A DNA stretch of 64,000 bases from Scenedesmus sp. ARA3 (taxonomy: Eukaryota > Chlorophyta > Chlorophyceae > Sphaeropleales > Scenedesmaceae), in the NCBI GenBank assembly GCA_004335835.1, contig RWJK01000658.1, positions 1,205-65,204 on the forward strand. Direction: 5' to 3'. A model generated the notes under the pieces. It was not told the origin of the DNA. It made no database searches and was given only the letters and a program-made list of their open reading frames with translations. Below, piece after piece: positions 3,986 through 60,902 of the stretch (position 1 is its first letter; each line of letters opens with the position of its first letter). Position numbers and translations under genes: made by a program.

Positions 3986-6900
3986 ATGGCCTCCGCCTTC
4001 GCCAGGACACAGAATGGCAGGGTTGCCAGCAGCAGGGCAGCACAGCCATGCAGGTAGGCAGCAATGTGCTTTGTCAGCTGTCGCACACCGGCCTTTATCC
4101 TGTTGCATGGTCATTGTCGCAATTGCTGTTTGATGACAGTCAGGCATGCAGCTTGGTGCAGCCACATGGTGGCCGTGCATCATGTGCTCTGCACAATCAG
4201 GGTTGCATGTGCAGCGCGTGTGCACCAGCATGCTACTGCAGTGCTCCTGTACTGTGCGCAATAGCCTCATTGTCCAGCGCAGTGCATCGTTAATGACAGC
4301 AGCAGCATCGCGCATGCACCATGGCACACTCTCAGCAGCAGCCTCGTAAACACACACCATCTCGCACAGACGACAGCATGTTGTCTCGCATCACATTGCA
4401 TGCACTGCCGCCTGCCCTCGGCCTCACCCTCTGCTGCACTCTCTGCTGCCTTCCAACCGCCGCAGGGCCCCCCTGCGGGTGCGCGCCGTGGCCACCACCG
4501 CCAAGAAGGACTCCAGCAGCGCAGCAGCAAGCAAGGCCAAGCTGACCCCCGAGGTGGCCAAGGACCTGTACTACGACATGCTGCTGGGCCGCGAGTTCGA
4601 GGAGATGTGCGCGCAGATGTACTACCGCGGCAAGATGTTTGGCTTCGTGCACCTGTACTCAGGGCAGGAGGCGGTGTCATCAGGTGCGCGGGGCGCTAGG
4701 GTTTGGGGTGCGAGGTCGCGAAGGCGTGCAAGTGTTTGCGGCTCAGCATGGTGCTAGGGTGGCCTGGTCAAATATGCAGAATGATGGTGAGATAAGACGG
4801 CTGTGTTCGGGTGTGGAGCAGCTCGCGCTGGCTCATACGTGATGCTCAGCAGCGACAGTTCCGTTCTTTGCAGCTGCTGCTTGCTTGATGCGCAACGGCA
4901 TCCTGCTGATGTGTGTTCCACCCGGATTGTCATGTGTGTGTGCTGCAGGCATCATCAGGGCGCTGCGCCCCGATGACTACGTGTGCTCCACCTACCGTGA
5001 CCACGTGCACGCCCTGTCCAAGGGTGTGCCTGCCCGCGAGGTGAGCTGGCTGGCAGCAGCAGCAGCAGCAGCAGCAGCGGTGACCAGCAGCATTGCGGTG
5101 ACCAGGAGCAGGAATGCAGGGAATGCAGCGCCTGTACGCGACTGGTTGCAGCAGCTCGCCTGACCAGCATCAGCAGGTTGTCCGTGTGCGGCTGCTCGAT
5201 GCAGCAGGAGCCTGTGCGCCCCTCAAAAATAGACAGACTCAGCTGGAAACATACGTGTTGCGTGCCAGGACGGTGGCTGCTTGCAGATGTCCTGTGTCTC
5301 CACCCTCCCATGCCACCCACCTCACTGTTACAAGTGTATACGCTGCTGTGTTTTCTGCCAGGTCATGGCTGAGCTATTTGGCAAGAAGACTGGCTGCTGC
5401 CGCGGCCATCCCAGCACCATGCACATTCACACCCTTCCCTCTGCCTTCATGCTCACGTGTAAGCCTCCTATGCGTGCCGCAGGTCATGGCTGAGCTGTTT
5501 GGCAAGAAGACTGGCTGCTGCCGCGGCCAGGGCGGCTCCATGCACATGTTCAGCGCCAAGCACGGCGTGCTGGGCGGCTACGCATTCATCGGAGAGGGCA
5601 TCCCCATCGGCGTGGGCGCGGCCTTCAAGTCCGCATACAAGTATGTTTGAATGCACTGGAATGGTATAAGCACACTGTATAAGCACACACACACTATCGG
5701 CAAGTGTGCGGCGAGCTTAAGGGTGTCCTGGGACAGCAAGGCCGAGAGGCTGGATGCAGCAGCAGTGACAGTAGCCGTGGCAGCCAACAGTGATGGATGG
5801 CTGCTTGAGCCCATCGCACAGGTCATCACCACACATGCTCTCCTCCTGCAAGCCGTGTACACATCACATACTGACGCAGCGGTTGCTGAACATGTGTGCC
5901 TGCAGGCGCCGCGTGCTGGGCGACGAGAGCAGCGACAGCGTGACCTGCTCCTTCTTCGGCGACGGCACCTGCAACGTGGGCCAGTTCTACGAGTCGCTCA
6001 ACATGGCCGCGCTGTACAAGCTGCCACACATCTTTGTGGTGGAGAACAACCTGTGAGTGCTGCGCAGCCGTGCATGCTGGGGCGGGTGTTGAGGTCGCTG
6101 CTTTTAGTTGCAGCTGCAGCGCAAGAAGCCGTGCTCGCGGGACCCACTTCCGCACAGCTGTATTGCCTGCATTCAGTGTGTCATACCGTACAAAACCTCA
6201 AATCTATCATGTTGTTGCATGCAATACCGCAGCTGGGCCACCGGCATGAGCCACATGCACTCCACCAGCCACACACATGTGTTGTGACACATCTTGTTAC
6301 TCATCTTGACACATGCTGTTACTCATCTTGTTATTTATACACACATTTCTCTTGCCACGCGCGCAGCTGGGCCATCGTCATGAGCCACATGCGCGCCACC
6401 AGCCACACACACCTGCTGTCACACATCTTGTTGTCACACGTCTCTTGTTGTCACACAATTCTGTCACGAATGTCTCATATCGTCACGCGCGCAGCTGGGC
6501 CATCGGCATGAGCCACATGCGCTCCACCAGCCACACGCTGGGTGACGCGGACTTCCCCTACATCTACAAGAAGGGCCCCGCCTTCGGCATGCCAGGCGTG
6601 CGCGTGGACGGCATGGACGTCATGAAGGTGGGGTCGAGCACGCGCTGGCGCTGGCCGATATGTGTTGCTGTATGCTGTGCATGCTTGCATGTTTGTGCAT
6701 GCGATTGAACGGCATGGACGTGATGAAGGTGCGTGTGTGGTTGTTGCTGCAGGTGCTGGCGCTGTTGTTGCTGGTTGTTGTATATTGCCTGTTGCAGTGA
6801 GCTTTTCTGAACTGCCCATTATTCTGCTCGCACATTGCAAAGATCAAAAAGTGTGTTGCAGCAGTATCCTTGCGAGAGCTGTCTGTGCGCCCTGCTGCCT

Positions 6901-7171
6901 CACTGCAATCGCAGCTTGCTATGCATCACGCATGCAAGCATGCGCGAAGCACATGCACCATGCTGCTGCAACACTCACTCAAGCGTGCCACACCGCCTCA
7001 CCCGATGCAGGTGCGTGAGGTGGCTCTGGAGGCCATCGAGCGTGCGCGCCGCGGTGACGGCCCCACGCTGATTGAGGCTGAGACGTACCGCTTCCGCGGC
7101 CACTCCCTGGCAGACCCCGATGAGCTGCGCAGCAAGGAGGAGAAGGCCGCCTACGCGGTGCGTGTTTTCAG

Positions 7172-7203
<32 letters not shown>

Positions 7204-13390: not shown

Positions 13391-15680
13391 ATGAAGGCGA
13401 AGACGCTGCAAATCATATGGCACAGCAAGGACCCTGTCTTCTCCATCGACTTCCACCCTGATGGCTACTTTGCTACCGGTGGAGCAGATAGGGAGATCAA
13501 GGTAAGCTGCAGATGGCCTTGCTGGCGGGGGCAGGCCGCAGCCTTTGCCAGCAACAGGGGCAGCACGCACAGCACAGACAGCATCAACAACACTACGCCT
13601 GTGCTAGGGTGCTTCTGCAGCTGCCAGTGGTCCCTTGCAAAGTTCATGCCGGGAAGGGCTTGAAACAGCTGTTGATTTCCTTCTTTACAGATATGGGAGC
13701 TCAGCTGTGCAGCAGACGGCACCCCTGGTGTGCGGCATGCTGCTAGCCTGGAGGGGCACAACGCAACCGTCAACTGCGTGCGCTTTTCCAAAACAGGTGC
13801 GGCTTGCTGCTTGATTGTCCAGCTTCCAGAATAATGAAGGGTATTGACCAGCTGTCGTTTGAAAACTGAACACTTTATGTCAACCATGTGGTGCTTGTGT
13901 GCCTTCTGTCAAAGGCAAGAATGCCCTGCAGCACTTGTTTGAGTTGCTGCATTGCTGCTGCACCCGCAGGTCACTGCATGGCGTCTGCTGGCGACAGCGG
14001 TGAGGTCATCATCTGGAAACCCACCCCAGCAGCAGGTGTAGCAGCAGCAGCAGCAGATGGCAGCGGCAGCCCCAGGGGTGCGACCCCGCCCCCGCTAACC
14101 CCTGGCGGTGCAGCAGCAGCAGCAATGCCTGGTGGTCTGGTTGCCAACAGCACTCCTGCAAAGGACGCTGCTGCAGAGGCAGCTGCAGACAGCAGCAGCA
14201 GGGAGGAAAATGTAGTGTCTGGCGTCAAGTGGAAGATGGCCCACACGCTGCGGGGTCACCATGACGATGTGACTGACATTGCCTGGGCGCATGATGATGC
14301 TGTGCTGCTGACTGGCAGCGTGGAGAATGAGGTCATGCTGTTTGACGTGCACAACAGACAGAACCTGGTGAGGCACCCACACAGCGCACGTCAGGAGAAT
14401 GCGACTTCCAGTTGATGATGGCGAAGAGAGAAGCATGATGTGTTTGAAATAATCAGGGGCCTTTTATTCGTGCAAGTGATGCAGCAGCTCATGGCAAATT
14501 GATGCCTGATTAGCATGCACAGCTGAGAACATATATTGCCACGCCAGCAGCAACTCAAACCCTGGCTGAACCCTCCTGCCTGCCGCCTGTCCCCTATGCA
14601 GCAACGGCTGCTGGGCCACCGGCACTACGTGCAGGGCGTGGCCTGGGACCCCCTAGGGGCATGGCTGGTCAGCGCCAGCGCAGACAGGAGCGTTCGCGTG
14701 CACGGCCTCAAGCCGCCACCCTCAGGTGAGTGCACAGTCCCAGTTGGTGTGAGCAGCAGCTGTTGGGCGGTGTGGTTGGAACAGGTGTGGCGTGTTGCTG
14801 TGCTTGATGTGTGCACGGCCTCCCAAGCTGCCACTATGCTGTGAGGGCCAGTTGTGTGCAACATGAGCACAAGTTGTTTGTGTAGCAGATGGCAGGTTGG
14901 CATGTTATGTTGCGTTGCTGTGCTGGGGGTGTGCATCGCCTCAAGCCACCACCCTCAGGCACATGCTGCTGTGAGCAACTGCTGCCAATTTGTTTTGAAA
15001 CACCTTCGACAGCCAAATGCTGCTGTTGCTGCAATGCCTGCCAGGTGGCAAGGCCTCCACAGCAGTGAAGAGCAGCGTGCAGCTGGCCCGGGAGTTCATC
15101 CACTCCGCAACGCTGCTCAAGCGCACAGTGCAGGCACCAGCCACACCGCCCAGGGATGCAGCACCAGCACCAGCAGCACCACCACCAGCAGCAGCAGCAC
15201 CAGCACCAGCAGGCGCAGATGCAGCAGCTGCTGCAGCAGTTGGCGGCTCCCCACAGCAGCAGCAGCAGCAGCAGGTGCCAGCAAAGCCCCTGCAGGCCTT
15301 TCTGTTTCAGGATGAGTCGCTGGCTGTGTTCTTCAGGCGCATGTCATGGTCGCCTGATGGGTCGCTGCTGGCGATACCTGCTGGGCTGGCCAAGGCAGCG
15401 CAAGGCAGCAGCAGCAGCGGCAGCGGCAGCAGCAGCGGCGTGCAGCACACAACATACGTGTATGCAAGGGGCAACTGGTGAGAGGAGCATGGGTGCAGTT
15501 TAGGCTGGAAAGTTATGTTCTGACATGCGCAGCGGCAGTCGAGCTGGCTGGTGGTTTGGAAGTTGCCTGTAGTGTGATGGCAGAAGATCGCATAACGTCA
15601 TGTGGTCTTGCCGCAGCACTACAAACATGGCTGCACTGTTGCTGTGTTTCAGTGTACTTGGACCGTTCTAATCCCTCACC

Positions 15681-15721
<41 letters not shown>

Positions 15722-36563: not shown

Positions 36564-36598
<35 letters not shown>

Positions 36599-38935: not shown

Positions 38936-39029
38936 GCAGCTCCCTCACTCCTCCCATCAGCGCAGCTGCTGCGGCTGCTGTGCTCCACCAGTCAATGCAG
39001 CACCTGCAGCTCCTGTGCTGTCCGCCATC

Positions 39030-41505: not shown

Positions 41506-41539
<34 letters not shown>

Positions 41540-43803
41540 GCACAGCAAAATGAGAGTGTGCAGCAGTGTGATGCTGTTCATGAGGTCACCCACCACCAAC
41601 CACAAAGTCGCCCCTGGGAGCAGCGTGACAGCAGCAGAACAGCACCGCACAGCAGGGTCAGAGGACAGCGTGACAGCATCTGCGGCTACTGCACAGTAGG
41701 GAGAAAGGCGCTGCTGCGTCGGCTGCCAGGCACATACTGCCACAAGGGCAAACCTGCTGGACACACAGCCGGCTGCGCTGCTGGCAGAAGCCAGCATGTT
41801 GAACTGCATGCAGGCTGAAGATCAGGCCAGCACAAAATGGACAAGCACCACATGCTCAACACAGCGTAGTGCTGTCAACAAAGCTGAAGGCCTGCATGCA
41901 TGTCAGGTACCAGCAGCAGCAACGTCAATAGCAGCAGCAGGGGCAAGAAGCGACACAGTAGGACATGCAGCAGAAGCATGTCAAGCACGCAGCAGGCCAG
42001 CCTGCCTGCAGTACACACAAAAAACCACCACATACAACAGCGTCGCTCGCACGCTTACATGTCAAACTTCAAACTACAAACTCTCTGTCAACAACCACAC
42101 GTTGCAAACCCGCACCAAGGCCGCCTCACCTCACAGCCAGGATCGGGCACAGCACCAGCACCCCAATCGGGCTGCAGCCACTGACCAGCCAGCATGCAGT
42201 GCAAATCAGCGTATACGTACCACCAAACCAGCAACACAACAAGGCCGCCTCACCTCACAGCCAGGAACAGGCACAGCACCTGCACCCCAATGGGGCTGCA
42301 GTCGCTGACCAGCTCGTGCCGCCCCGCTGCTGCTGCCGCCCACTTGAACAGGTGCACCTTGTTGTTCACTGTGGCCAGCAGCTTGCCTTGAAATTCACAC
42401 AGGTTGTAGACTGCACCGTGGACTTCCATCTGCTCTACTAGGGTGAGGCTGTTGGAGCCTGGTGCGTAGTGCAGCAGCAAGATGTGGCCCTTGCTGGGCT
42501 CAACCTCCTGCAGGGGNNNNNNNNNNNGGGGGGGGTACAGCAGGCACACAAACATGGCACTCAGCTCTCGCTTCAGTTTTTTTGGTTTCAGAGCATGTGA
42601 CAACGGATGCGAGCAGGATGTGGCCCTTGCTGGGCTCCACCTCCTGCAAGGAGATGTACAGAGGGCACAATTTCTTGGTGTTCGGCTCTTGCACCTTTGT
42701 AGGTTTTAGACCATGTGACAGCGGATTCAAGCAGGATGCCGCCCTTGCTCTGCTGCCCCTCTTGCAGGGACTGGGAGATGCAGCCACATGTGTAGTGGTT
42801 GGGGTTGTTGGAAGACTGTAGGCAAAGCACAGAAACCACGGTGTGCTGTTCTCCTCCTCTTCTGAAACCCAACCCATGCGACAATGGAGGCGGCAGGATG
42901 AGCCCCTTTCTAACTCGGTGCAAGTGCCACCCTCTGCTGCTGCGTGCCTCAACAACATCCTACAAACCCTGCAGCACCTACAGCAGGGAATGCCTGCCAA
43001 TGCTGATGCATCACACGCTTACATTTGGCTTGATGACTGCCGTGCCAACTATGTAGTACGAGGGACTCCGCTCACTGCTGCTGCCACCTCCCCCTGCCAC
43101 TGCGGCAGCACCCTCCGGCTTGTCTGCTGCTGCTGCTGCTGCTGTGCTGCTGCTGCTGCTGCTGCCGAAGGCCATGCTGGTGATGGCAGTAGGTATCTCC
43201 TGTGCCCCCAGCTGGTATGAGGCCAGTAGGTCGAAGCTGCTGTCACTGAACACGCGCAGGTAGCTGCGCCCGATGTCGCCTGCAAAGAATGATAGGGACA
43301 TTGCAGGAGTAACAAACGCGTTGGCAGCATATTGAATCATTGGTGCTGATGCTGAGTTAGCAGCACTTGCAGCTTGCAGAAAGTACAGATTGCTGCTGCA
43401 AAGAGTCTTGGCCTGCCTGGGCTGTTCTGCGTTTAACAACGCCACAAGACAACACGACAATGTTGCCTGCAGTTGCAGCGTTTGTCACGTGCAAACCAGT
43501 TCCAGCAGTGCAGAGATTTTGGGCAGCACTGTCGCTCACTGGGGTTGGCGCCTGCTGGTGTGCTGATAGTGACCACCCCAAGGCTCCTGCTGCCGGGCTG
43601 GTGCGCAATGCGGCGCGGCTGCTCGCCCAGCGGCACCGTGCGGATGTGCAGCTTCTGGATGCCTGCGGCAGCAGCAGCGGCAGCAGCAGCAAACACACAG
43701 GGGGTACTGCTATACGCGAGCAGCAGATGAGCAGATAAGTCACAATATGACATGCTGCCTTGCTTGCTGCTGGCACATGATATTGCACGTGCCAGCTGCC
43801 TCT

Positions 43804-43868
<65 letters not shown>

Positions 43869-46800
43869 CATTGCATGATCCCGAGGCGCCTCACCGTCTA
43901 TGGTGCCCAGGCTGAGGCTGGCCTCCTTGACCAGGGCCAGGCTGTCAGGGAAGCTGGCAGTGCTGAAGGAGGCCAGGAACGCCACCTGGGGCACATGCAA
44001 ACAGCAGTAGCAGGAGCAAGTAGTCAGTCACGTTTGAGATGATTCAGCACAGATCAGCAGCACAGATCAGCCAGCGTTGCGTAAGGACGTAACGAAGGCC
44101 ACCCAAAGTGGAGATGGCAGGAAGGGGGAAAGGGAGAAAGGGGAGAGAACAAGCAGAGCCGGGGCGTGCTGTTGACCCTGGTTGTAAGGAGCAGCTCAGA
44201 TCAGCAGTGATACCTGTTTGTGATACTGCGTTGGGTAGAATGGCAGTCAGGGTGTGGAGCTGGCTTAACAGCACTAGTAGGCTGGAAGGGAAGAAGCATA
44301 CTGCTGTCGGACACTGCCACAACAGCTCCACAGCATGGTGCGACACACACAGGTCTTTGCCGCGGCAGCAGCTGCGTTGCTGCTGTAAAATGTGGACTCG
44401 TTCCAAACATATGTTGCACATATGTTGCACCCGGATTTACCAGCAGGGGCTACCCGCCAAGCCCAGCTGGAAAGAGTGGTGCGCTGCCTCGCTGTCCCCC
44501 CACTCAACATTAGAGCTGAGCACGCCAAGGGAGACTGGCCCGCACAGCACAACGCATGTGGAGGGATGCACATCAACAACTCATTGCCACGGCACCACCA
44601 CAGGAGACACCAGCAGGTGCCATGTTCCAAAACAAACACACACAAGTGCGCCACGCCAGCTGCATGCGTGCCACAATCTGCTGCAGTGCATGAACATGTT
44701 TGTGTGGCCGCCAGGAGGCTTTGTCCCGCACCTCGTTCTCGTTGAGGTTGCTGTAGAGCAGCTTGCGGTTGTTGGAGTAGATGATGGTGGGCCTGTCGCT
44801 GGCTGCAAAGATGTGGCGCTGCCCGCCGCTGCTGAAGGCGGACAGCAGGATGGGCTTGGTGCCCAGCACCACCTTGCGGTGGTCTGGGGTACAACACCAG
44901 AAAGCAGAACAGCAGAACAACACAACAGCGAAAAGCAGCAGGAAACAAAAGAATAGTCAGAGCGGGTGCATGCCAGGATGGGGATGGGGCCCAGCACTAC
45001 TTTGCGGTGGTCTGGAACAGTAAAAGAACAACAGAAAGCAGCAGAATGCAGCAGACAGCAGCAGAAGATAGCAGAGCTGTAGTCAGAACAGGGGCATGCC
45101 GGTATAATTTGGTGCACAGCACCACCTTGCGGTGGTCTGGGGTACAACACCAAAACCACAGCAGAACAGCACAACAGCAAAAAGCAGCAGGAAACAAAAA
45201 AACAGAGCGGCTGCATGCCAGGATGGGCTTGGTGCCCAGCACTACTTTGCGGTGGTCTGGGACAGTAAAAGAACAGCAGAAAGCAGTGGAAGACAGCAGA
45301 AAGCATCAGAAGATAGCAGAGCCATAGTCAGAGCAGGTGCGTGCCATGGTGATGTGGTTCCCAGCACCACCTTTTGGTGGGCTGGTGACAGGGACAAGTA
45401 GGAGAACAGCAGGAAGCAGCAGAGAACAGCAGGAGGCAGCAGAAAGTGGATGTACGGTCAGATCAGGTGCATGCCAATGATTGGTGCCCAGCACCGAATT
45501 GCGGAGGTCTGTCCAGCAATGCAACAGCATGCACAAAACAGCAGCTCCTCCTTTCGGCATGTTTCAACACAACAAGCAATGCAATGCAACACAAACGCTC
45601 CTCCACACACCGCTCAAGCTGCTGCTCTCCGGCTCCCAGCGCCAGTTGTGCAGCTGGCCGTCGCCCAGCCTGCACAGCACGTAGGTCCGGCCCTCAAACC
45701 AACCTCAAACCCCCATCGAGCCAGCCTCAAAACTAGCCTCCAAGCAAGCAAATCTAACCCTTCCGCTCACCGCTGAGGCTACTACTATCCGGCTCCCAGC
45801 GCCAGTTGTGCAGCTGGCCGTCCCCAAGGCCACACAGCACATAGGCCTGGCCCTCAAACCAGCCTCAAACCCGCATCAAACCAGCCTCAAAAACCAGCCT
45901 CAAAAACCAGCATCAAAGCAAGCAGGATACGCCTCCCGCTCACCGCTGAGGCTGTTAGTCTCCGGCTCCCATCTCCAGTTGTGCAGCTGGCCGTCCCCAA
46001 GGCCACACAGCCCGTAGGCCTGGCAATCAAACCAACCTCAAACCCCCATCAAGCCAGCCTCAAAACTAGCCTCAAAGCAAGCAGATATAACCCCTCCGCT
46101 TACCGCTGAGGCTGTTACTATCCGGCTCCCATCTCCAGTTGTGCAGCTGGCCGTCACCAAGGCCACACAGCACGTAGGCCTGGCCCTCAAACTCAGCCAG
46201 CGCTACGCTGCGAGGGATGACCTCGCTGCCCAGGTCTTCTGTTACAATGGGTTTTAGGTCTGGCAGTGATAGCAGTGCCACCTGCATGGACCAGCTGCCC
46301 ACGGCTGCCAGGCTGGCACGTGTGTTGTCGGGGCCTGGGGAAAGAGGGAGGTGCGGCGATACGGCAGCCAAGCAAGCAGACGTGATTAGGTAGCAAAAAC
46401 GTGCCAGCGTTCTTGTAGCGTGGGTTTGAATTGCAACAGGGCTGTTACAAAAATGTTCCATGGCACAAGATCCTGCAAGTGCCCTGCTTATCAGCCAGCA
46501 CCTGACGTTGGTAAGCAAAAAAGTGTTGTTATGTAACAAAACACGTGTGACGCTCACCCACTGGTGTGATGTCCAGGCAGGCCACCTCAGCGTCCATCAC
46601 CACAGCACCAACTTCCTGCAGCTGGCCCCCCTCAGCCACCTCCAGCATCATCTTCAACACCATTGCAACACTACTATGACACTGTTGTACCACTGTTATA
46701 TAACACAAGTAACACTCACCCACTGGTGTGATGTCCAGGCAAGCCACCTCAGCATCCATCACCACAGCACCAACTTCATGCAGCTGCCCTCCCTCAGTCA

Positions 46801-49800
46801 CCTCCAGCAGCCACACCTTGCCGCCCCCAGAGGCCACCAGCACCTGGCAGGGGCTGGCAGCAGCAAGCGTGATGCTGCTGCTGCCGGCGTTGGCTGCTGC
46901 TGCTGCTGGGGACCACTGAGTGAGCAGCTGCCCAGAGCTGGCGGAGATGAGGCGCACTGCTGAGCTGGTGACCTGCAAGATTTGAAATCAGACATACAAC
47001 AGGTTGAGGAGGCGGGTAGCAGCAGGAACAAGCACTGCTGCGCACATCTGCGCAAAGCAGCAACCGCGGATACCAGCCGCCGCACCGCACCTGCAGCAGC
47101 TGGTCATGCAGCGTGGTGGCTGCAAGCAGCGTCTGGCTGTCTGCTGCTCCCAGATCCCCAACCATTGGGGGGACCTGCTCCCAGACACCGCTAACCACAT
47201 GCAAAGTTCCAGCCGGAGTTGACAGCAGCATAACAGCCGCCCCACCACACCTGCAGCAGCTGTGCAGACACCCAACGTGCAAACAGGACAAGCTTTGCTT
47301 TCCTGCGCAGCAGAGCCGGGCTCACCTGCAGCAGCTGGTCATGCAGCGTGGTGGCTGCCAGCAGCGTCTGGCTGCCGCCATCAAAGCCGGGGATGGACGC
47401 CTCATCCAGCACATCCTCCTCACTGATGGCCAGCAGCCGCGTCTCGCCAACAAAGGACAGCACCAGGTGAGAGTCAAACGCGTCCATCCAGCTGGCGCGC
47501 AGGCTCCACACGCCCTTGATGCCTGCGGTCATGTTTGGGTAAAACAAACGGGGCGCATTACAACAGTAGTTTCGTGGTGTTGACTTGTGTTACACTATAA
47601 GGTGTAGTATAACCCAGTGCAGCAGAGTTGTTGAAAGACCTGAAGGTTATGTGCTGTGCGTCATCGCTGTTGAAAGAGCAGATGACCATGAGCTAACACC
47701 GCCTCAATGTAGGCGAGCATTGTCATATCTGGGCACATGCATGCACAAACTTAACACCATCGCACTGGTGCCGCATCATCACAACGGTGCAGGCAGCATA
47801 CATAGAAACACAGTGCTGTCCGCGCACCTGGCAGCTGCATGGATGCGGCCTCATGCATGGATGCAGCGCTGAGCACGGATTGGTGGACCTGGCAGATCAG
47901 GCCAAGGCAACAGAGCGCCACGGGCCCGTCCAAACCCACCTGGCAGCTCCATGGCTGCGGCCTCGCGTATGCATGCACAGCTGCAGCACTCATTGACTGG
48001 CAGATTAGCCCCAGGCAGCATACTTGGCACTAACGCCACAACACCCTCCACAACCTCTCAACCCACCCGGCAGCTCCATGGCTGCCGCCTCGTGGATGCC
48101 AATGCCGTTGCGCACCACGCGCAGGCTGCCGTCCTGGAACACGCCGCTGCACGTCACCATCTGCGGCAGCAGCAGCGGCAGCAGCAGCAGCAGAAATACT
48201 TTTCCCTCAGTCAGACAGCTCTTGCAAGCGGTACCCGGTGATACCACTTACACATCTGCACCTGACAGCAGCAACTCCCAAAACCCACGTCATGCTGCTG
48301 AGCTGCTGCATTTGACTCCAGCAGTCAACACCAAATTTGACAGCAGGCCTGCAGTGCTGCCGTACTGCCGCGCGCTCTGGAGTGCCTTGCACCCACCAGG
48401 CCCTGGGTGGCACCAGCAGCACGCGTCCCTGTGCTAAGCTGTGTCACTTCAACCAGGAACTTCCCAGCAGTAACAGCCCCACAATGCACGCCGGCAAACC
48501 CACCTGGCCCTGCCCCTGCCGCTCCAGGTCCATCACAACAAAGTCCACAATGGGAGCCAGGCTGGGCCAGGAGTCCACAACCTCCACGTGATTGGGACCC
48601 TCATCGCCACCAGCAGCAGCAGCAGCACTGCCAGACCCTGCGGCTGCCGCTGCAGCTGCATCATCATCTGCTGCAAGGCTGGAGATAGGCCCTGCTGGTG
48701 CCCCTGCTGCTGCTGCTGTGGGAAGTGGCTCTGCATGCAGTTTTATGAGCTGGCTGTCGCCGCCTTTGCTGCCTAGGAAGACGTAGCCGCTGTCTAGGTA
48801 GGCCATGCAGTGTGTGCTGGTGGTGCGGCCTGCAGGAACGTTGAAAGTAACACCATAATTACCATTGCACATCTGCTCCTGTTCATGTTCTATGATGGTG
48901 GGCGGGCTGCAAACTGCACGAGAAAGTGTTGAGTTCAAACGCATCTTGCTCCTCCTGCCTCCCTCACCCTGAACAGCACTCCCAGCCACTCTCTTAAAGT
49001 TTGTCTCAAGCTCTCTCTCACTCTCTCTCACTCACCCAGCGTCTGCACTTTGAGCCCCGCCACCCTGTTGTCGGCGTGTGCCAGCACTAGCAGGTGCAGC
49101 CCGCCCGCATGGTCACTCAGCAGGTAGCGGCTGCCATCAGCATCCACAGCAGCCCAGGACTGCAGCCACACAGATACAAGGCGCTCAAAGCACATTCAAG
49201 CATACAGCACATCATGGTGGCGGCGACAGTGTTGGCAGAGGCATAGAGACAGGCGAGCAGGTAGGCAGCAAGTAGGCAGGAAGACAGAAAGGCAGGGGCA
49301 GGCAGACAAGCAGGCAAGTGGCTCGCCCGCACAGTCACTCAGCAGGTAGCGGCTGCCATCGGCATCCACCGCAGGCTAGGACTGCAGCCGCATACAGATT
49401 CAAGCAGTGTTGCAGCATAATTTGAATGATGGCATGAAGTAAGGCAATAGCAGCATCGGCAGCGACAAACACAGGCAGGCAAGCAAGCATACAAATGCTA
49501 CAGTATGGCAGCTGCAGGCGCGTTGAGCAACACACCTACACACGCGCACCCCCGCAGCCACGCCCGCACCCACCTGTATGGACGTGTTGGGCTTGATCTG
49601 CGTGCTGCGCGTGGCGTGCTGCGTGTTGAAGTAGCTCAGCACACTCTCACCCAGCACTATGGCGCCGCCTAGCGGCTGCGGCACTGGGATGATGCGGCTG
49701 CTGCCTGCATCAACGTTGGCTTGAGACCAGGGGCCGTCCTCCAGCTCCTGCAAGCAGCATGTGTGTATATGGATGTGCAAAAATCACACTGTGTGAAGCA

Positions 49801-52430
49801 TAAGCACGGGGATGATGCGGCTGCTGCCCGCATCAACATTGGCTTGGGACCAGGGGCCGTCCTCCAGCTCCTGCAAGCATGATTATGTATGTGTGTGTTA
49901 TGTGTGTGTTATGTGTGTATGTCATGTTGGTGTTGTGTGCACCTAAGGGCTGCGGCACGGGGATGATACGGCTGCTGCCCGCATCTACATTGGCCTGGGA
50001 CCAGGGGCCATCTTCCAGCTCCTGCAAGCACCACGCCGTGTGTGTTTGGTGTGTGTTATGTGGGCATGTCGATGTTTGCGGTGTGCAAGCATCACACCTA
50101 GCAGCAGATGATAGTAAGTGAGCTGCAAGCACCGCTCGCTGCAGGCCTGCCCATGCGGCCAGCAGCGGCATGAAGCTGGCGGCAAGTTACAGGACCACAG
50201 TCGGCAAGCCGTTCCATTACAAACTGCCACCAGGACGCACTTTGCATGCACCATTCTGCACTAGCCAAAACGTCACCTACCCGTGTCTTGAGGTTCAGCG
50301 TGTAGGTCTTCACATGCCGCGCATGCTTGTTGTCCTCATACAACAGCGCCAGCACAGGGTTCACTGCTGCTGCCGCTGCTGCTGCAGAGCTGCCCGCGCC
50401 GCTGCTGCTGCTGCTTGCTGCCAGGAAGGCCACGTCAATCACTGCCAGCTCTTCTAGCCGCAGGTTGAATGTTTCCGGGGCCATCTGCAGTGAAGGACCC
50501 TCCTCCATTTGCAGCACCTGGCAGTTGGTGGCGCGGCAGGATATTGTTGGCGGTGTATGTGCAGGCAAGGTGTGAGGCACGGAAAGCGGTGCGCATCGTT
50601 CAAGTCTGATTGCCTGGAATACAGTCGTGCCTGTTGCCGCAACACAACTAGTAAGCAGGACCCCTGCCGTCACCTCCCTCCTGCTGCAGCAACACTCAAG
50701 CTGCCCTCAAGCACGCATGCTGCCATGGCCCCAACATGAAACCCTGCTGCTGTTGCAGCTGCTGCTGCTGCTGCTGCTGCTGCTGCACCTACCTTCAGCT
50801 GGCCCTCATACAGGTGCAGCGCGATGGCCCTGCACTCAGGGTCTACTGCCGCAAGCTGCCCGGCCTCCACTGGCCTGCCAATGGCATCTTTAACGTCACA
50901 TGTCGCACGTGTAACAAGCTCAGGCTGGCCTGAGGGCCCTGCTGCCACCCACTCCAGCACAGCAAACTTGTAGTGCTCAGTGAGCAGCAGCAGCAGGTCC
51001 TTGGTGGCATTCTGTGTGCAGCACAAGTGGAGGCACACAGGCATAGCGTGAATGCAAAGGGAATCAAGGATGAGGTGTGCGGTGTGTTGGCATGGCGCAG
51101 CAGCAGCTTGGGACAACAGCTACGGCAGCAGTGCCAGGTCATCCTGCAGCTGCCTCGTCCCACGCATGGTGGTCTCACCATGCCTGCAATGAGCAGCTGC
51201 TCCTGCTATGCACTCACCCCTTCAAGCATGTGATGCTGCTCCTGCCGCTGCCGCTGCTGCTGCCACCGCTGCTGCTGCCGCCGCTGCTGCTGCCGCCGCT
51301 GCTGCCGTCACTGCCGCTGCTGCTGCTGCTGCCGTCACTGCCGCTGCTGCTGCTGCTGCTGCCGCCGCTGCTGCTGCCGCCGCTGCTGCTGCTGCTGCTG
51401 CTGCTGCCCCGCACCTTTGGCCTGAAGAGCTTCAGTGCTGACAGCACACCATACAGCGGCACCGTCTGCACAGCCTGCATGCCACCAGCACAGCAGCACA
51501 AGAACATAGCTCAGCACAGCACAGCACAGGCTGCAGGGGTCAGGGTGAAGCCTTCATGACTATGGCAGCATTTGCAGCAGAAAGTGTGGCACTGCCTGGA
51601 AGGGGCAGCTGCCAGCAGATCCAGGGTGGAAGGTTAGCTTGATGCAGCACCAGTGCTGCTTGAGGGATGAGAAGCGAGAGATGCAGCTGCAAGTGATGGC
51701 ATGCAGCCCGCCGGTGGCGTGAATGCCATGTTGCAGCTGCTGTTACTGTGGCTGTGGCTGCTGCTGCTGGGTATCACTGGCTTGGCGGTCTAAGCAGTTG
51801 TAGTAATCTATCCATGTGCATTGCATGCATGGTGTTGCTGGCAGTGCACACAAGTCAAGAAAGCGTCCTTGTGTAGCACCTGCAAGCCACCTAAAACAAG
51901 CAGCCTTGCAATCTGCCTGTGGGAACTTGCATACACAGAACTGGCATACCAGTGCAGCTCCAAGGTTATCGAAGCAACACTAGGCTGCCTTGATCATGTG
52001 ATCCCCATGCACAGTGTTGCATGCAACAGCTGCTGCCATGGCGGACTTGAAGTGGCTGCATCTCATCAGCAGGCGAATGCCTCTGCGGTAATACAAGCCG
52101 GCTCAACAATAACAGATTCACCCACCTTGAGACCTTCAGGCGTTAGCACTTGGATGTCCAAGTGTGTGGAGCGCCTGTTGTAAACACAGCAGTGCGGTGC
52201 GGCATCAGTTCATCTGCTGTGCAGGCCTGCTGCGTGATCAGCCGTGGCAGGCTGCCCTGCGCTTGAAACATCGTGTCACATCTTTCTTCTCACCCTATGA
52301 TCAAGTTTGTTTCATTTGGGCTGGTGAAGCTCCCCACAGCACAGTGCCTGACAGCAGTGGGCTTGTGCGCAGTCACGTGGTAATTGAACAGGCAGCCCTG
52401 AGGCCCCACGTCCGTCACCATGGGTTCCAT
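39030..52430 (-). CDS. DDB1: DNA damage-binding protein 1
   Basis: DDB1 is the three-propeller adaptor linking DCAF receptors to the CUL4 ubiquitin ligase and binds UV lesions with DDB2. Twenty-one exons join in phase, about 1209 aa: 52430-52294, 52174-52126, 51474-51415, 51011-50793, 50517-50281, 49747-49574, 49159-49036, 48829-48504, 48160-48067, 47522-47326, 46972-46720, 46334-46104, 44883-44732, 43985-43895, 43662-43540, 43279-43023, 42507-42254, 41485-41407, 41090-40998, 40322-40068, 39254-39030. Landmarks: [106 protein letters not shown], and the C-terminus [13 protein letters not shown] to EELQRLH. Ala/Ser-rich loop insertions make it somewhat longer than usual. Most introns hold repeated exon edges, so the gene covers 13.4 kb. 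Confidence 0.95.
39255..39463 (-). repeat. Two copies of the 5' edge of DDB1 exon 21
   Basis: The true acceptor is at 39254 ([18 protein letters not shown]). Acceptor-side copies start at 39357 and 39463, spacings 103 and 106 bp. Each keeps about 60-65 bases of exon before CAG-rich intron. Confidence 0.9.
39577..40067 (-). repeat. Two copies of the 3' edge of DDB1 exon 20
   Basis: The exon end encoding [18 protein letters not shown] with its donor (40068) recurs at 39824-39960 and 39577-39720. The longer copy spans over 130 bases, back to [15 protein letters not shown] sequence, and both keep a GTGCGG donor. The spacing is about 240-250 bp, larger than in other arrays. Confidence 0.9.
40323..40796 (-). 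repeat. Four copies of the 5' edge of DDB1 exon 20
   Basis: The exon start [20 protein letters not shown] at 40322 recurs with CAG acceptors at 40449, 40561, 40675 and 40796. Spacings are 127, 112, 114 and 121 bp. Copies retain from about 70 down to about 45 bases of exon. Confidence 0.92.
41486..41617 (-). repeat. Copy of the 5' edge of DDB1 exon 18
   Basis: About 50 bases encoding [16 protein letters not shown] recur upstream of exon 18 at 41566-41617. The copy carries a short insertion (CAACCA) and its acceptor context has changed, so it looks decayed. Confidence 0.85.
42117..42178 (-). repeat. Copy of the 3' edge of DDB1 exon 17
   Basis: The stretch around the donor of exon 17 (42240-42305 on the plus strand) is repeated at 42117-42178 with about 10% difference, including the paired CCTCAC donor motif. 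The spacing is about 123 bp. Confidence 0.85.
42508..42765 (-). repeat. Copies of the 5' edge of DDB1 exon 17, with sequence gap
   Basis: The exon 17 start ([11 protein letters not shown], 42507) recurs at about 42643 and, more decayed, at about 42761. Spacings are about 136 and 118 bp. Eleven undetermined bases (42517-42527) flanked by a G run sit inside this array, so its true copy number is unknown. Confidence 0.85.
42517..42527. other. Assembly gap (11 N)
   Basis: Eleven undetermined bases are flanked by G runs and sit 10 bp upstream of DDB1 exon 17, inside a repeat array. The gap size is probably nominal. Confidence 0.98.
43804..43866. repeat. (CAG)21 microsatellite in a DDB1 intron
   Basis: Twenty-one uninterrupted CAG triplets lie in the intron between DDB1 exons 14 and 15. 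On the transcript strand this is (CTG)21. It is the longest pure triplet array noted in the window. Confidence 0.92.
44884..45508 (-). repeat. Five copies of the 5' edge of DDB1 exon 13
   Basis: The exon 13 start ([10 protein letters not shown]) with its acceptor at 44883 recurs at about 45011, 45136, 45256, 45381 and 45508. Spacings are 128, 125, 120, 125 and 127 bp. The intron parts of the units (AGAACAGCAGAAAGCAGCAG-like) are also shared, so whole units are repeated and only the last meets the full exon. Confidence 0.93.
45611..46103 (-). repeat. Three copies of the 3' edge of DDB1 exon 12
   Basis: The exon end encoding [18 protein letters not shown] with its donor at 46104 recurs ending near 45944, 45771 and 45611. 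Spacings are 160, 173 and 160 bp. Each unit ends in intron built of CAAACCAGCCTCAAA-like motifs. Confidence 0.92.
46553..46650 (-). repeat. Copy of the 3' edge of DDB1 exon 11
   Basis: About 98 bases, including the donor and the [18 protein letters not shown] codons, recur downstream of exon 11 (46720) with a few changes. The donor is intact. Confidence 0.9.
47086..47265 (-). repeat. Copies of the 3' edge of DDB1 exon 10
   Basis: The exon end encoding [13 protein letters not shown] (47326 onward) recurs at 47089-47160 and, shorter, at about 47247-47265. The longer copy keeps about 55 well-matched bases but its donor context is altered. Confidence 0.82.
47827..48066 (-). repeat. Two copies of the 3' edge of DDB1 exon 9
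   Basis: The end of exon 9 ([10 protein letters not shown] with its donor at 48067) recurs at about 47938-47975 and 47827-47860. Spacings are roughly 120-130 and 110-115 bp. Donor-like GTGGGT or GTGCGC follows each copy. Confidence 0.85.
49160..49384 (-). repeat. Copy of the 5' edge of DDB1 exon 7
   Basis: The exon 7 start ([20 protein letters not shown]) recurs at 49381-49321, 222 bp upstream in transcript order. It has a small deletion and a changed first codon region (TAGGACTGCAG instead of CAGGACTGCAG). Confidence 0.85.
49748..50028 (-). repeat. Two copies of the 5' edge of DDB1 exon 6
   Basis: The exon 6 start ([20 protein letters not shown]) at 49747 recurs at 49870 and 50021, spacings 123 and 151 bp. 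Copies retain about 65-85 bases of exon with scattered substitutions. Confidence 0.9.
51232..51410. repeat. 180-bp CTG/CCG compound array in a DDB1 intron
   Basis: Nearly pure CTG and CCG triplets, with occasional TCACTGC breaks, fill most of the intron between DDB1 exons 3 and 4. On the transcript strand it is CAG/CGG. Open frames across it are repeat artefacts. Confidence 0.9.
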
Positions 52431-55700: not shown

Positions 55701-58700
55701 CTACGGCAGCAGCCCGCTGTCTCCACAGTTCGTGCCGCAGCAGGGCGACTTTGAGCTTCGCAGCCAATACGAGGTGCTGCTGCTGCATTGGAAGTTCAAC
55801 AAGACAGCCTGGGTCACAAACTCGCAAGGGCCCCACGGCGTGGTGAAGGCAGTGGGCGATGCCTATTGGCTGTGGGAGGATGTGCTGGTGACGTGGTCAA
55901 AGGCAGCAGGTGGCGGGGCAAAGGGTGGTGCGCTGGCGGCTGCGATTGCTGTGCCGATCGTGGTGGTGGTGCTGCTGGCGGCGGCCGCAATCGGCTTTGT
56001 GCTCTGGCGCAGGTGCGGGGTGGGGCTGGGGGTATGGGGAGTGCACTTGTGTGGCGCTACTTGTTGCAGGATGAGGTTGTCTCTGGACTGAGGTGTTTGT
56101 TGCAGGCGCTGGCTGGAGGTGTTGCTGGCCCTGCTTGGCTGCACTGAGACGCTGGGTGTGCTCAAATTCGGCATGGTGGGGTGCTTGCGGTTGCTGCCAG
56201 CGTGATGCAGCCCGCACCTTCAGGTTAGCTGCATCATGTCGTCATGTGCCGCCTCCTGCAGCAGCAGCAGCAGCAGCTGCTGACACCTACTTCCGCCACT
56301 GCCGCAAACCTTGCTGCCCGCCACAATTACTGCTGCTCAGGCGCCGCGCCCGGGCTGCTGCTGCAGCAGGGGAGAGCAAGGACTTCTTCCCTACTGCTGA
56401 CCCCTCGCTGCAGCCTGGCGGCATTGGCGCCCACTCTGTGAACGGCATGCCGCCCGCCAGCACCACCTACGACGGCAGCACCAGCAAGCTGGAGAGCAGC
56501 AAGTACAGCTACAACACGCACGGTGCGCCGCGCGCGTAGTGACATGCTGATTGGTATATGTGTGCACACGCGCGTTTGACTTGGTTCTGGAGAAGACAGC
56601 GTGTTGTTGCTGCTGTGGGCCGAGCATGGTGCTGCAGCGCCAGATGCAGAGACAGGCTGTACAGCGTGCGTGTGTGGCCCACGCCTTCTCCACGTTGCTG
56701 CTGCTGCTGCTCACTCTGCAGAGTTGATCGAGGAGGCGCGGCGGCGCATGCAGGTCACTGCTGGTGGCCGGCGTGACACCGCCATCGTGCTGGAGGGGCT
56801 GCTGGGGGAGGGCACCTTCGGCAAGGTGTACAAGGGTGAGCGCAGTGATGCATGGCGTGTGCTGTGCGCCATGTGCTGTGTGCTGTGTGCAGTACATGGT
56901 GTGCTGTGTATTGTGTGCTGTGTGTTGCTTGGGGAGGGCACCTTTGGCAAGGTGTACAAGGGTAGATGGCATGGCTCTTACTCGGATCTAGCAGCGGGCT
57001 GTGGGGTGTGTGTGCTGTGTGGTGGTTGCCTTGTGTGCTGTTGTGATGTAGAGAGGCTGGCGTACCAGCTTCGCAGGCCAATGCGCTTCCGCAGCAGCTT
57101 GCGTGAACGCGCAGTTCATGTGCAAGAGCCAGCGTGGTTGTTGGGTTGTGAATGCACTTGCTTTCTTCCTTGCGACCTTTCACCATCGCAGGCACCTGGC
57201 AGGGCACTGTGGTGGCTGTTAAGACGATGCTGTTCCCCGCCGCCATGACGCAGCCGCAACATATCCCACAACGCTAACAACCATGGTGACACATGTGCAT
57301 TGCAGGCACCTGGTAGGGCACCGTAGTTGCTGTCAAGAAGATGCTGTTCCCTGCCGCCATGTCGCCATAATTAAAGCCATCATCATAATGTACAACAATG
57401 CTAACAATTATGGTCACACATGTGCACTGCCGGCACCTGGCAGGGCACCGTGGTTGCTGTCAAGACGATGCTGTTCCCTGCCGCCATGACGTATCAAAGC
57501 CATCATCACAATGTACAACAACACTAACAGCCATGGTGACACATGTGCATTGCAGGCACCTGGCAGGGCACTGTAGTTGCTGTCAAGACGATGCTGTTTC
57601 CTGCCGCCATGAGCGGCAAGGAGAAGCGCGAGAAGATGGCCATCATGGAGACAGCCATCAGCTCCACGCTGTCGCACCCCAACATCGTGCAGACCTACAC
57701 CTACGTGGTCAAGCCGCTCACTGGGGAGCTCGCGATGCAGGTGCGGCTGCTGCGCTGCTGGGGGGTGGGGGCTGAGCAGGCGGCAGGGCCCGCTTGTTGT
57801 GGTGTTGCGCTGCTGCGGGGTGGGGGCTGAGCAGGCGGCAGGGCCCGCTTGTTGTGGTGTTGCGCTGCTGCGGGGTGGGGGCTGAGCAGGCGGCAGCTTG
57901 GGGAAGCACATGCAGATGAGGGGAAGCGTGGCGCTGGCAAGTGCGGGCTCTGCCGCATGTTCAGGTGTTGCACGTAAAGCACGTGATGGTAATGCTTCAA
58001 GCACACACCGCAGCTTACATTCGCTTGCTGTTGCTTTGGCTGACGCTGACCAGCTGTCTGACGGCCTGCTGCGTGCTTCTTGTGTGTCTTGCTGCAGGCC
58101 ATTGAGCGCAGCAAGGGCGGCGCGCCGCAGCACGGCAGCGATGACACCGACCCCTCCTCGCTGCTGGGCAGCGAGCTAGGAGAGAACCATGGCTGGGAGG
58201 TGAGGCGGCAGCGGAAGGCGGGAGCGCTGCCACAATTGCATGGCTCTGCTTGTTAGTCTTTATGCATCCCGCTCCGTGCGGCGGTAGATAGACACTATGA
58301 ACTTGAGTGCATTTGGTAGGGCAGGCCCTTGCACTGCACCACACATTACGTGGAAGAATGCCGGCTGTGTTGGAACCTAAACCGGACGGGCTGCTGCTGC
58401 TGCTGCTGCCGCAGGTGCGGCTGGTGCTGGAGCTGTGTGACCTGGGCAGCCTCAAGGAGCTGCTCAATGCAGGGGGGCTGCGGCGGCCTGACGGCAGGCC
58501 AGACATGGTGGGGGTGGTGGCGACAGTGCTGGACATCGCGCGTGCCATGCTGCACCTGCACAGCGAGAACATCATCCACTCCGACCTCAAGGTGAGCGGG
58601 CTGTTGTAACATGACATGGTGTCACATGATATGGCTAAAGCTGTGGCTGATGGGTTGCCTGACGCCGCCAGTACCTGTGCAATCGGTTCTGCTGGGTTCG

Positions 58701-60902
58701 AGCTTGACTAGTAGCGGCTGCAGAAAGCTGCGGCAGCTCGCGGCAGCTGCCGTGCCATATGTGCCTGGCCTTGCTTCTTCTGCTCTGTACTGCTTGCTGT
58801 GCTGCTGCCCCTCAACGCCACTGTACCGCTGTCAACCGCCATCACGCTGCTGCCTGCCCCTGCAGTGCCGCAACGTGCTGCTGAAGTCTGCTGGCTCTGA
58901 CGCGCGCGGCTTTGTGGCCAAGGTGTCCGACTTTGGGCTCAGCGTGCGCATGGACCCCAGCGAGACACACGTGTCCAACGTGTACCAGGTGGGGTTGAAC
59001 AAAGCAGCCCTTAGAATGCGAAAGCAATAACATCTGCGGCCGGTGTGCTGCAGCAGACACATGCTGACAAGCTGCAGCTGCATGCTGCTGCTGACTTTTG
59101 TGCCCTTGGTCGCACGACAGACTGCCGCACATTGCTGGATGAAAGCGCTGCCTTATTGTCGCTCTTTGCCGCACATGACATCATGCTGCAGGACACGCTC
59201 ACGCACATGGCGCCCGAGGTGCTCACGTTTGGCCAGATCAGCCACCCTCTTCCTTTTTACAACACTAACACACATGCTGCTGCGCTGTTGTCCTGCAGGG
59301 CACGCTGACGCACATGGCGCCCGAAATGCTCATGTTTGGCAAGATCAGCCCCCTTTTTCCTTGTTTTCATACCAACACACACGCTGCTGTGCACTTGTGC
59401 TGCAGGGCACGCTGACACACATGGCGCCCGAGGTGCTCATGTTTGGTAAGATCAGCCGCGCCAGCGACGTGTATGCCTTTGGCGTGCTGCTCTGGGAGCT
59501 GTACACAGCACAGCAGGCCTTCAAGGGCATGCCTAAGGCCCTGCTGGGCCACGAGGTGACCAAAATGGGCCAGCGGCCAGAGTTCCCGCCTGATAGCCCG
59601 TTTGACTACCAGCTGCTGGCCTGCAGGTGCTGGGAGAGCGACCCGGCCATACGGTGAGGAGATGCTGTTGTTCCTGTGCGGGTCTGGGCAGAGCTGTGCT
59701 GCCTTGTTGCTGTGATTGTGCTGGCACATACTGGAAGGGTGTGCCATGCACTGTGGTGAAGCCACCAGCGCTCGACTATTGCATGACCACCAAGACAGCT
59801 TCCACAGAATAACATCAACTGCACTGTTATAACATGTCATGTAACACACTCGTGCTTGTTATGTTCTTGCAGGCCGTCGTTCCAGCAGATCCTCGCTGAT
59901 TTGCAGCGCATGGCCAGCAAGCTCGCCACTGCAGGCTGCGACTCAGCCTCCAGCTTACCAATGCAGCAGCAGGCCTGCCCACAGCCGCAACAACAGCAGC
60001 AGCAGCTGCCGCCGCCGCAGCAGCAGCAGCACGGGTCGGCAGCAGCTGCTGCCGCAGCCGGCGGTGTCACGGGTGCTGGTGTTGGCATCGATCTTGCGAA
60101 GCTACACAACTGGGAGCCGCAGACGAGCCTGCTGGACCTGCAAACAAACTCCAGTGTGCACGGATCCTTGGGGCCGGATCGCGGGTCGCCGCCGCTTGTG
60201 AGTAACGCAAGTAACATCCAGCAGGCGGCGCTGCATGACAGCATGAGCTGGGGCACGCAGAGCGCTGGCGGCGGGCTGTGGCTGGGCGGCGAGTTTGCGC
60301 CCAGCAACATGCCGAGCGACGTGCAGCTGCCTCCCGTGCATCATGGCGACGAGCCGGTTCCTGCAATGCCTGGGCTGCATGAGGCGCTGGCGGCAGCAGC
60401 AGCAGCGCAGCAGCAGCAGCAGCTGCTGCTGCAAGTAGTGCAACAGCAGCAGCTAGCAACGCAGCAGCAGCAGCAGTCGGGCGGCAACCTTGTGCAGTGG
60501 CCAGGCCTCGCAGGCCCAGCAGCCGCACCACAGCAGCAGCAGCAGCAGGTTCTGCACCAAATGCACCCTGGGGAGGGCAGCAGCTCTGATCCGGATGCAG
60601 CCCCCAACACCCACAGCAGCAGCAGCAGCGGCGTGTACCTGGATAACTCCAGCACCATGGAGGGGCTGTATGACCCAGCGGGGTACAGTGGCTCGCCTGC
60701 TTCGCAGGCGCCGGCTGGGGCTGCTGCGCTGAGCAGGCAGTTGGCACAGCCTGGCAGCAACATGGCCACAATCGCAGAGGAAGCAGAGCACACAGCTGGT
60801 GGCACCAACTCAGGTGCAGCAGTGCCTGCTGCTGCTGCCAGCAATGCTGCTGCTGGTGCCAGCGTTGAGGTGGATGTGGCTAGGGGTGCAGGCCGCAGCT
60901 GA
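52783..60902 (+). CDS. Receptor-like protein kinase with beta-helix-like ectodomain
   Basis: Predicted plasma-membrane receptor kinase; the ligand is unknown. Exons join in phase: 52783-54513, 54995-55201, 55636-56012, 56341-56522, 56722-56835, 57556-57740, 58098-58199, 58415-58591, 58866-58988, 59406-59653, 59873-60902 (1491 aa). The start MSLTFAVLLALLACPFSTAL is a clean signal peptide. The ectodomain (~760 aa) has pectin-lyase-like repeats. The membrane helix is AAAIAVPIVVVVLLAAAAIG followed by FVLWRRRR. The kinase domain has GEGTFGKVYKG, VAVK, a C-helix Glu in METAISSTLSHPNIV, HSDLKCRNVLL in place of HRD, DFGL, MAPEVL, SDVYAFGVLLWELYT and CWESDPAIRPSF, i.e. a TKL/RLK-type, non-RD kinase. 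The ~340-residue tail is Gln/Ala-rich. Introns 5 and 9 contain repeated exon edges. Confidence 0.88.
56836..56961 (+). repeat. Duplicated 3' edge of kinase exon 5 (glycine-rich loop)
   Basis: The exon end GGGGAGGGCACCTTCGGCAA with its donor (56835) recurs 126 bp downstream ending at 56961, with one change and GTAGAT in place of GTGAGC. The repeated piece encodes the ATP-binding glycine loop. Confidence 0.9.
57192..57555 (+). repeat. Three copies of the 5' edge of kinase exon 6
   Basis: Copies of the exon start (GTWQGTVVAVKTMLFPAAM) begin at 57192, 57306 and 57433; the true exon begins at 57556. Spacings are 114, 127 and 123 bp. Copy 2 has TAG in place of the CAG codon after ACCTGG, and copy 3 has CCG in place of the CAG acceptor, so at least two are defective. 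Each includes the catalytic Lys codon or a neutral variant of it. Confidence 0.93.
57740..57900 (+). repeat. Three ~54-bp tandem copies at the kinase exon 6 donor
   Basis: From the exon 6 donor, units of the form GGTGGGGGCTGAGCAGGCGG followed by CAGGGCCCGCTTGTTGTGGT repeat about three times within 160 bp. It is a G-rich intronic minisatellite on the coding strand. Confidence 0.85.
59192..59405 (+). repeat. Two copies of the 5' edge of kinase exon 10
   Basis: The exon start GTLTHMAPEVLMFGKIS (59406) recurs at 59192 and 59299, exact spacings of 107 and 107 bp. Both have intact CTGCAG acceptors and about 55 bases of exon; copy 2 reads APEML. The repeated part encodes the APE motif. Confidence 0.93.

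Follow-up and report, generated by a model that had tools for sequence, protein, structure and literature searches.

Tandem copies of exon edges and their splice sites within introns of the green alga Scenedesmus sp. ARA3

We analyzed a 64,000-nucleotide stretch of Scenedesmus sp. ARA3 (positions 1,205 to 65,204 of contig RWJK01000658.1, assembly GCA_004335835.1; hereafter the window, with coordinates counted from its first base), in which an exon edge, its splice site and neighboring intron sequence are repeated in tandem within the intron. The gene families carrying these arrays were recognized by domain as E1_dh (PDH E1-alpha), CAF1B/HIR1 (FAS2), expansin and protein kinase (a receptor kinase), and DDB1 by homology, which upholds all five gene names proposed in an earlier note on the window. 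We refer to the copy at the exon body as the true copy and to those lying within the intron as decoys. Analysis of a 250.6-kb sample of the same assembly confirmed that many introns carry tandem copies of exon edges and splice sites far beyond chance.

The window holds 25 arrays, 22 of which were counted as straddling an exon/intron edge, in keeping with the 'over twenty' edges of the earlier note. PDH E1-alpha (plus strand) has an acceptor edge with one decoy at a step of 121 bp (5359..5547), the exon 6 acceptor edge with two decoys (6228..6536; steps 134/128) and a donor edge with one (6596..6731; step 101). The plus-strand CAF1B/FAS2 gene has a single donor edge array (14698..14959; one decoy, step 233), and the minus-strand expansin gene has one decoy at a donor edge (29804..29960; step 114) and one at an acceptor edge (30034..30198; step 125). 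DDB1, also on the minus strand, has 13 arrays. The array at 38527..39180 covers the end of its last coding exon, with two more copies, about 244 bp apart, past the stop codon; it is included among the 22 but is not at an intron edge. DDB1 acceptor edges with decoys lie at 39192..39463 (the last exon; two decoys, steps 103/106), 40254..40819 (four; 127/112/114/121), 41437..41616 (one; 124), 42476..42770 (true exon start at 42507 according to protein alignment, misplaced by the gene finder, with an 11-N gap at 42517-42527), 44846..45511 (exon 13; five, 128/125/120/125/127), 49099..49404 (one, bearing a stop; 222) and 49668..50085 (two; 123/151). Its donor edges with decoys lie at 39508..40211 (two; 250/240), 42113..42313 (one; 124), 45600..46198 (three; 160/173/160), 46532..46809 (one; 162, the true donor being at about 46720 by protein and again misplaced by the gene finder) and 47933..48099 (one; 127). 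The receptor kinase gene (plus strand) has a donor edge with one decoy (56800..56963; step 126) and acceptor edges at exon 6 (57184..57612; three decoys, 123/127/114) and exon 10 (59184..59457; two, 107/107). Arrays thus reach five decoys, and DDB1 shows dimer periodicity. Step sizes given earlier for PDH exon 6, expansin, DDB1 exon 13 and kinase exons 6 (as 114/127/123) and 10 were all reproduced; the unit range of 100-135 bp given with them is typical without being universal, as 233 (FAS2), 222 and 162 bp also occur.

The sample combined the window with 22 stretches on other contigs of the assembly (87.27 Mb, 1567 contigs), picked by contig number before inspection, and the scan for arrays covered these 250.6 kb; contigs shorter than 20 kb are under-represented in it (among 20 stretches in one draw, 5 were nonexistent and 5 short). 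Gene models came from a small hidden Markov gene finder trained without annotation on the sample, yielding the donor consensus CAG/GTGNG and the acceptor consensus CTGCAG/G (slash marking the splice point). Decoy areas were blocked from becoming exons in its second pass, so the edge or interior classification, based on these models, is not independent of the first pass. After masking of CAG-type and short-period repeats (7.6% of bases), self-comparison returned 195 direct repeat pairs less than 1 kb apart and a single inverted pair, which rejects an inverted or palindromic origin; one 2-mer-block shuffle of the 250.6 kb gave no pairs. Repeat offsets are most frequent at 100-140 bp, and a further group lies near 220-260. 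The resulting 97 local tandem arrays occupy 28.7 kb, or 11.5% of the sampled bases, and according to the gene models 76 straddle an exon/intron edge (one of these, as noted, not an intron edge), 7 lie in intron interiors, 2 are intergenic, 2 lie inside exons, and 10 are neither edge nor pure. Edge arrays mark about 10% of the 730 predicted exon edges and affect both splice sides, as previously claimed, in about equal numbers (42 donor, 34 acceptor); 54 of them lie outside the window, in 10 of the 22 stretches.

Random placement of the same intervals would give 36.9 edge arrays rather than 76. Duplications inside exons are harmful, and a fair null therefore discards them: when ~125-bp duplications were placed at random and exon-internal and multi-edge ones discarded, 39% were expected at edges, 42% in intron interiors and 19% in intergenic sequence, i.e. 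about even between edge and intron. Detection bias favors edge copies by only 1.22-1.26 fold, as estimated by simulating decay and applying the same search. With this bias corrected, the observed 76 edge, 7 intron and 2 intergenic arrays amount to a 9.4-fold edge excess over intron (p=6e-14), and the edge:intergenic odds, expected at 2.66, are 76:2. The window had been picked for the feature; excluding it leaves 54 edge, 6 intron and 1 intergenic arrays (7.9-fold, p=1e-9), so that, within this sample, exon-edge repeats are far commoner than random intronic ones; the earlier note had named the contrary outcome, edge repeats being no commoner, as fatal to its proposal. Arrays with homology along the whole unit show the same preference (26 edge, 3 intron; p=4e-5).

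For comparison of copies, 123 true/decoy pairs (59 acceptor, 64 donor) were drawn from 71 junctions, of which 31 have at least two decoys and 40 have one; the other 5 of the 76 edge arrays gave no pair, either having no copy within about 12 bp of the junction or being filtered out. The unit step has a median of 126 bp. True/decoy identity is high across 40-60 bp of exon and continues through the splice site, falling to ~0.65 in the intron, versus 0.5-0.57 for random sequence. Arrays extend into the exon by a median of 52 bp (acceptor) or 61 bp (donor). The exon share of the unit has a median of 0.47 (acceptor; quartiles 0.38-0.58) or 0.48 (donor; 0.39-0.61) for the 68 of 76 edge arrays with periods of 80-170, a distribution truncated by the difficulty of detecting exon parts shorter than about 28 bp. 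Canonical dinucleotides are present in 116/123 decoys (GT or GC in 61/64 donors, AG in 55/59 acceptors), and decoy splice-site scores are slightly under those of real sites (p about 0.003 on each side) and far over those of other intronic GT or AG dinucleotides. Use of a decoy would shift the frame or hit a stop in 115/123 cases. The substitutions, stops and lost splice sites ascribed earlier to the copies hold for a minority: there are 6 stops in 1376 decoy codons, and 7/123 splice dinucleotides are lost. Unit steps modulo 3 (remainders 0/1/2 in 36/52/35 cases) show no preference for multiples of three, which rules out reading-frame selection on unit length.

The arrays resemble minisatellites, which consist of head-to-tail units of ~10-100+ bp in several copies, both in this layout and in homogenization of inner units, though a third of the inner spacers have no match. 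They do not fit tandem exon duplication, which copies a whole exon with both splice sites; here at most 0.85 of the predicted exon length is reached. Intron gain of the AGGT type is rejected likewise, as the unit holds an existing junction and its intron flanks are intron-like, and introner elements or another dispersed family are rejected by the absence of matches for 67 spacers (E<1e-3) elsewhere within the 250.6-kb sample. The earlier note suggested a single mechanism. One class of array, shared by 10 of the 22 stretches outside the window, a common unit size, involvement of both sides and the edge preference support this in part; the CTGCAG or CAG microhomology offered as a possible agent is not supported, because CTGCAG/G is the 3' splice consensus and its presence at unit borders is therefore not evidence of microhomology, the unit breakpoints being too coarsely mapped for a direct test. 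A chromatin-sized unit had also been suggested; the usual nucleosome repeat is longer than the 126-bp median.

Homologous proteins were used to locate the true edges. The first protein matches to the window DDB1 are annotated Tetradesmus obliquus proteins, P0002 and P0003. Exon matches of P0002 are mostly 80-100% identical, seven of them >95%; two at 71% either overrun the exon or span a segment duplicated in P0002. These matches suggest that the alga is T. obliquus or a close strain. Mapping of the DDB1 exons with P0002 supports the reading that the true edge is the copy on the exon side, and human DDB1 aligns unbroken across the exon 13 junction that hides five decoys. Among the 13 DDB1 arrays the gene finder misplaced the junction in two, and a third is the array that is not at an intron edge. 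For a starch-branching enzyme gene, P0242 and P0243 (the latter from a transcript record) support 6/9 edges, with one copy each. Each mapped intron edge is thus present only once in the homologs, so the true site in the mapped cases is the one nearest the exon body, and, judging from these alignments, it is apparently the site used. The exception is the terminal DDB1 exon, of which P0002 and P0003 both contain a C-terminal segment of ~27 residues twice. The second segment of P0002 corresponds to a copy in the 38527-39180 array that in the window follows the stop codon, and it shares two diagnostic residues with that decoy, while both copies in P0003 have the diagnostic residues of the window true copy; the doubling probably reflects misannotation brought about by the array. 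DDB1 residues 604, 695 and 697 differ between P0002 and P0003; at each the true copy has the P0002 state and at least one decoy has the P0003 residue. By eye, a further relative, P0004, agrees with the decoys at 604 and 697 and with the true copy at 695. The sample of residues is small. The starch-branching-enzyme paralog (L026, G000 C906:18500-24500) is densely arrayed, with steps mostly of 117-242 bp and up to five copies; at least some of its arrays lie at exon edges that are array-free in the relative, and one edge may be shared. A search for T. obliquus betaine lipid synthase models with annotated decoys gave none named T. obliquus among the 120 of 543 matches listed, many of which are nameless.

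True/decoy mismatches at codon positions 1/2/3 (0.067, 0.053, 0.190) at first suggested coding constraint on the decoys, a candidate then weakened by the near-even distribution of changes private to one decoy (27/33/47). Sites that set the true copy apart from every decoy are distributed 6/0/25; from the two distributions together we conclude that decoys drift and the exon is constrained, with the silent-change excess on the real copy not fully explained. Flank comparisons dropped 1/123 pairs for a short flank and more at stretch ends. In one-decoy arrays the exon part has a divergence of 0.070 at positions 1+2, and homology between real and decoy flanks is weak but above control (p=6e-5 acceptor, 0.026 donor): the median z is 3.2 for acceptors (17 arrays) and 1.4 for donors (23), versus 0.6 and 0.3 for unrelated controls, whereas a simple tandem duplicate of similar age (simulated at 0.06) would be expected to give 23-28. 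This fits flanks that were duplicated once and are now old, beside a decoy exon part that looks young. Among arrays with at least two decoys, 67% of inner spacers (n=83) match another inner spacer, and 37% of outermost flanks (n=30) match any. In our reading, an old duplication lies behind the pattern: exchange of the minisatellite type recycles its inner part, and its outer flank simply drifts. True/inner-decoy pairs with homologous flanks (29/52) diverge by 0.089 in exon and 0.146 in flank, consistent with drift. Two possible clocks were abandoned: exon identity is only weakly related to flank decay (flanks homologous in 0.31 of the 0.80-0.85 class and 0.48 of the 0.95+ class), and the rank of a copy in its array gave rho -0.18 (p=0.14).

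Some other repeats were observed. The kinase gene has a 55-bp intronic minisatellite at 57762-57896, 98-100% identical, among the few highly similar arrays that are fully intronic. A direct repeat pair (8339-8766 and 12535-12946; 69% identical, 4.2 kb apart) lies where gene models are poor, and 21-bp tandem repeats at 25410-25671 lie within a predicted coding exon, encoding a coiled-coil-like repeat. CAG/CTG runs are very frequent throughout the window (e.g. 43804-43867, 51234-51407), giving Gln, Ala or Ser stretches in predicted exons and occurring in introns as well, and dozens of comparable runs lie in other parts of the assembly.

Our best explanation, held tentatively and at a little less than even confidence, is that ordinary ~125-bp tandem duplications persist at splice junctions as selection-trapped minisatellites. 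Tandem duplications of ~100-145 bp would originate in ordinary repair of breaks or in template switching. One spanning a junction would leave the exon intact as long as the exon-nearest site is used, despite decoys ~125 bp away, as the mapped cases partly bear out, while exon-internal ones would be purged. The two exon edges now present could then undergo minisatellite-like recycling, in which inner spacers tend to homogenize and the outermost flank does not. If an array contracted between edges, decayed decoy sequence would end up in the coding exon; selection would then act against loss, with expansion being neutral, and we propose that edge arrays therefore outlast those in intron interiors. 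Exchange of the nearest decoy into the exon would change the protein at 53/71 junctions, hence contraction would often be purged at edges and free inside introns, a putative ratchet. In support of this explanation, edge arrays are 8- to 9-fold commoner than random tolerated births would make them once detection bias is taken into account. Under such a ratchet no edge bias is expected among the youngest arrays, and full-unit arrays fit: at ≥85% identity 3 lie at edges and 2 in introns, and at <85% the counts are 23 and 1.

Several observations weigh against this explanation. The similarity split just given leans toward persistence over targeted birth without reaching significance (p=0.07). Flank homology is absent from 23/52 true/inner-decoy pairs, which speaks against a simple history, and the outermost flank is homologous for only 3/17 decoys with <8% exon mismatch; recycling was invoked precisely because simple duplication with drift fails on this missing homology. 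Nor does it explain the heterogeneity among stretches: 12 of the 22 sampled (two of them only 889 and 2045 bp) have no edge array, and others have up to 11. Stretches L005, L007, L009, L012, L014-L017, L019 and L022 are without edge arrays, L007 with 18 predicted introns; density is strongly gene-specific.

The main rival, still live if rather unlikely, is that duplication is targeted to junctions: some feature of transcribed DNA at splice junctions, such as RNA:DNA hybrids, a stalled polymerase or a chromatin border, would cause breaks or template switches at them, producing ~125-bp units. The edge excess over intron interiors would follow equally, and the near-absence of intergenic arrays (2/97), the narrow unit size and the centering of the unit on the junction (by exon share) all favor it, but the centering measure is truncated for short exon parts, and of the five full-unit arrays with the highest similarity two are intronic, a hint that duplications are also born away from junctions. 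We consider unlikely the fuller version in which splice junctions are a mutational hotspot, with transcription- or splicing-coupled ~125-bp duplication centered on borders on both sides, introns growing by copying their own edges and fossilizing older exon sequence, and a spliceosome that must recognize exons. That decoys are functional, kept for splicing regulation as poison sites or for intron retention or delay, would account for their largely canonical dinucleotides, for scores near those of real sites and far above intron background, and for exon parts that diverge less than the co-duplicated flank should allow. We think it improbable: private changes show a mild third-position excess and no clear coding constraint, real sites score significantly higher, the paralog has at least some arrays at other positions, and, by an arithmetic estimate, drift of 6% per site would retain about 88% of dinucleotides, against 94% seen.

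Artifacts are less probable again. A short-read assembler might have joined exon edges from two divergent haplotypes, and the concentration of real-decoy mismatches at third codon positions would fit; the step, too, is close to the length of a short read (101 bp in another T. obliquus draft, PMC5255914), and for a relative an excerpt of PMC7955037 indicates likely diploidy and alternate haplotype contigs. Yet decoys are 89.8% identical to the true edge in amino acids (1235/1376), versus 98.3% between P0002 and P0003, stops occur in them, and nearly half of the junctions (31/71) have more than one; P0002, a record on an 11.1-Mb contig, carries the copy with one decoy's two diagnostic residues, and no allelic contig was found for three arrayed regions among the 40 candidates scored per search. 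Misassembly is thus very improbable, and the arrays are most likely not an assembly artifact. Detection or annotation bias, i.e. exon copies being recognizable for longer or the gene finder making exons of repeats, is the most improbable account and is already largely refuted. The exon part does have one conserved copy and hence slower decay, and the models were trained without annotation and erred in the DDB1 arrays described above; however, the simulated bias falls far short of the excess, and proteins support the true edges in DDB1 and in 6/9 starch-branching-enzyme arrays.

Human minisatellites, or variable number tandem repeats, show unit turnover, inner homogenization and multi-copy arrays; the algal arrays are alike in all three, but one of their units serves as a functional exon edge and is subject to purifying selection. 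Zhuo et al. (2007) reportedly described alternatively spliced human introns of modern origin derived from tandem arrays, whose units supply splice sites; the algal units likewise contain splice sites, but there introns arise, whereas here existing introns gain decoy edges. The earlier note knew of no named description. Internal tandem repeats at exon-intron boundaries are, however, known from human duplicated genes, with ~30-bp units and 27 curated intron modifications, in recent paralogs only, as excerpted from De Grassi and Ciccarelli 2009 (PMC2812944). Like those described in that excerpt, the algal repeats straddle the boundary, expand as minisatellites and change intron structure; unlike them, they have ~125-bp units, affect about 10% of sampled exon edges, and lie in conserved genes such as DDB1. 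Tandem duplication is also an established source of introns through duplication of an AGGT-bearing exon segment (PMC3443670, in excerpt); both processes are tolerated through splicing, but the algal unit already has a junction and intron, so that an old intron grows. Small tandem duplications are products of break repair, shown with engineered breaks having 43- and 50-bp overhangs (PMC8355091, in excerpt), a candidate birth mechanism, although the excerpted account makes no link to splice junctions. A search of open-licence papers, mostly at the level of titles and abstract starts, found no account of a genome-wide exon-edge class or of one in green algae, and by term look-up two Sphaeropleales genome papers (PMC7955037, PMC12571836) lack the words 'intron' and 'splice' in their main text.

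The arrays present the splicing machinery with the task of picking the true site among near-identical decoys about 125 bases apart. The exon-side site being the true one in mapped cases fits the prediction of exon definition, in contrast to the intron definition proposed for Volvox and Chlamydomonas (PMC4378016, in excerpt). They are also a warning for annotators, as the two T. obliquus DDB1 models that hold one array segment twice illustrate. If our reading is true, about a tenth of the exon edges in a compact algal genome would be natural splice-site competition experiments, making the question of exon versus intron definition directly testable in green algae; the arrays would supply fossil copies of exon edges, and, at more than a tenth of the sampled sequence, they would name a concrete route of intron growth.

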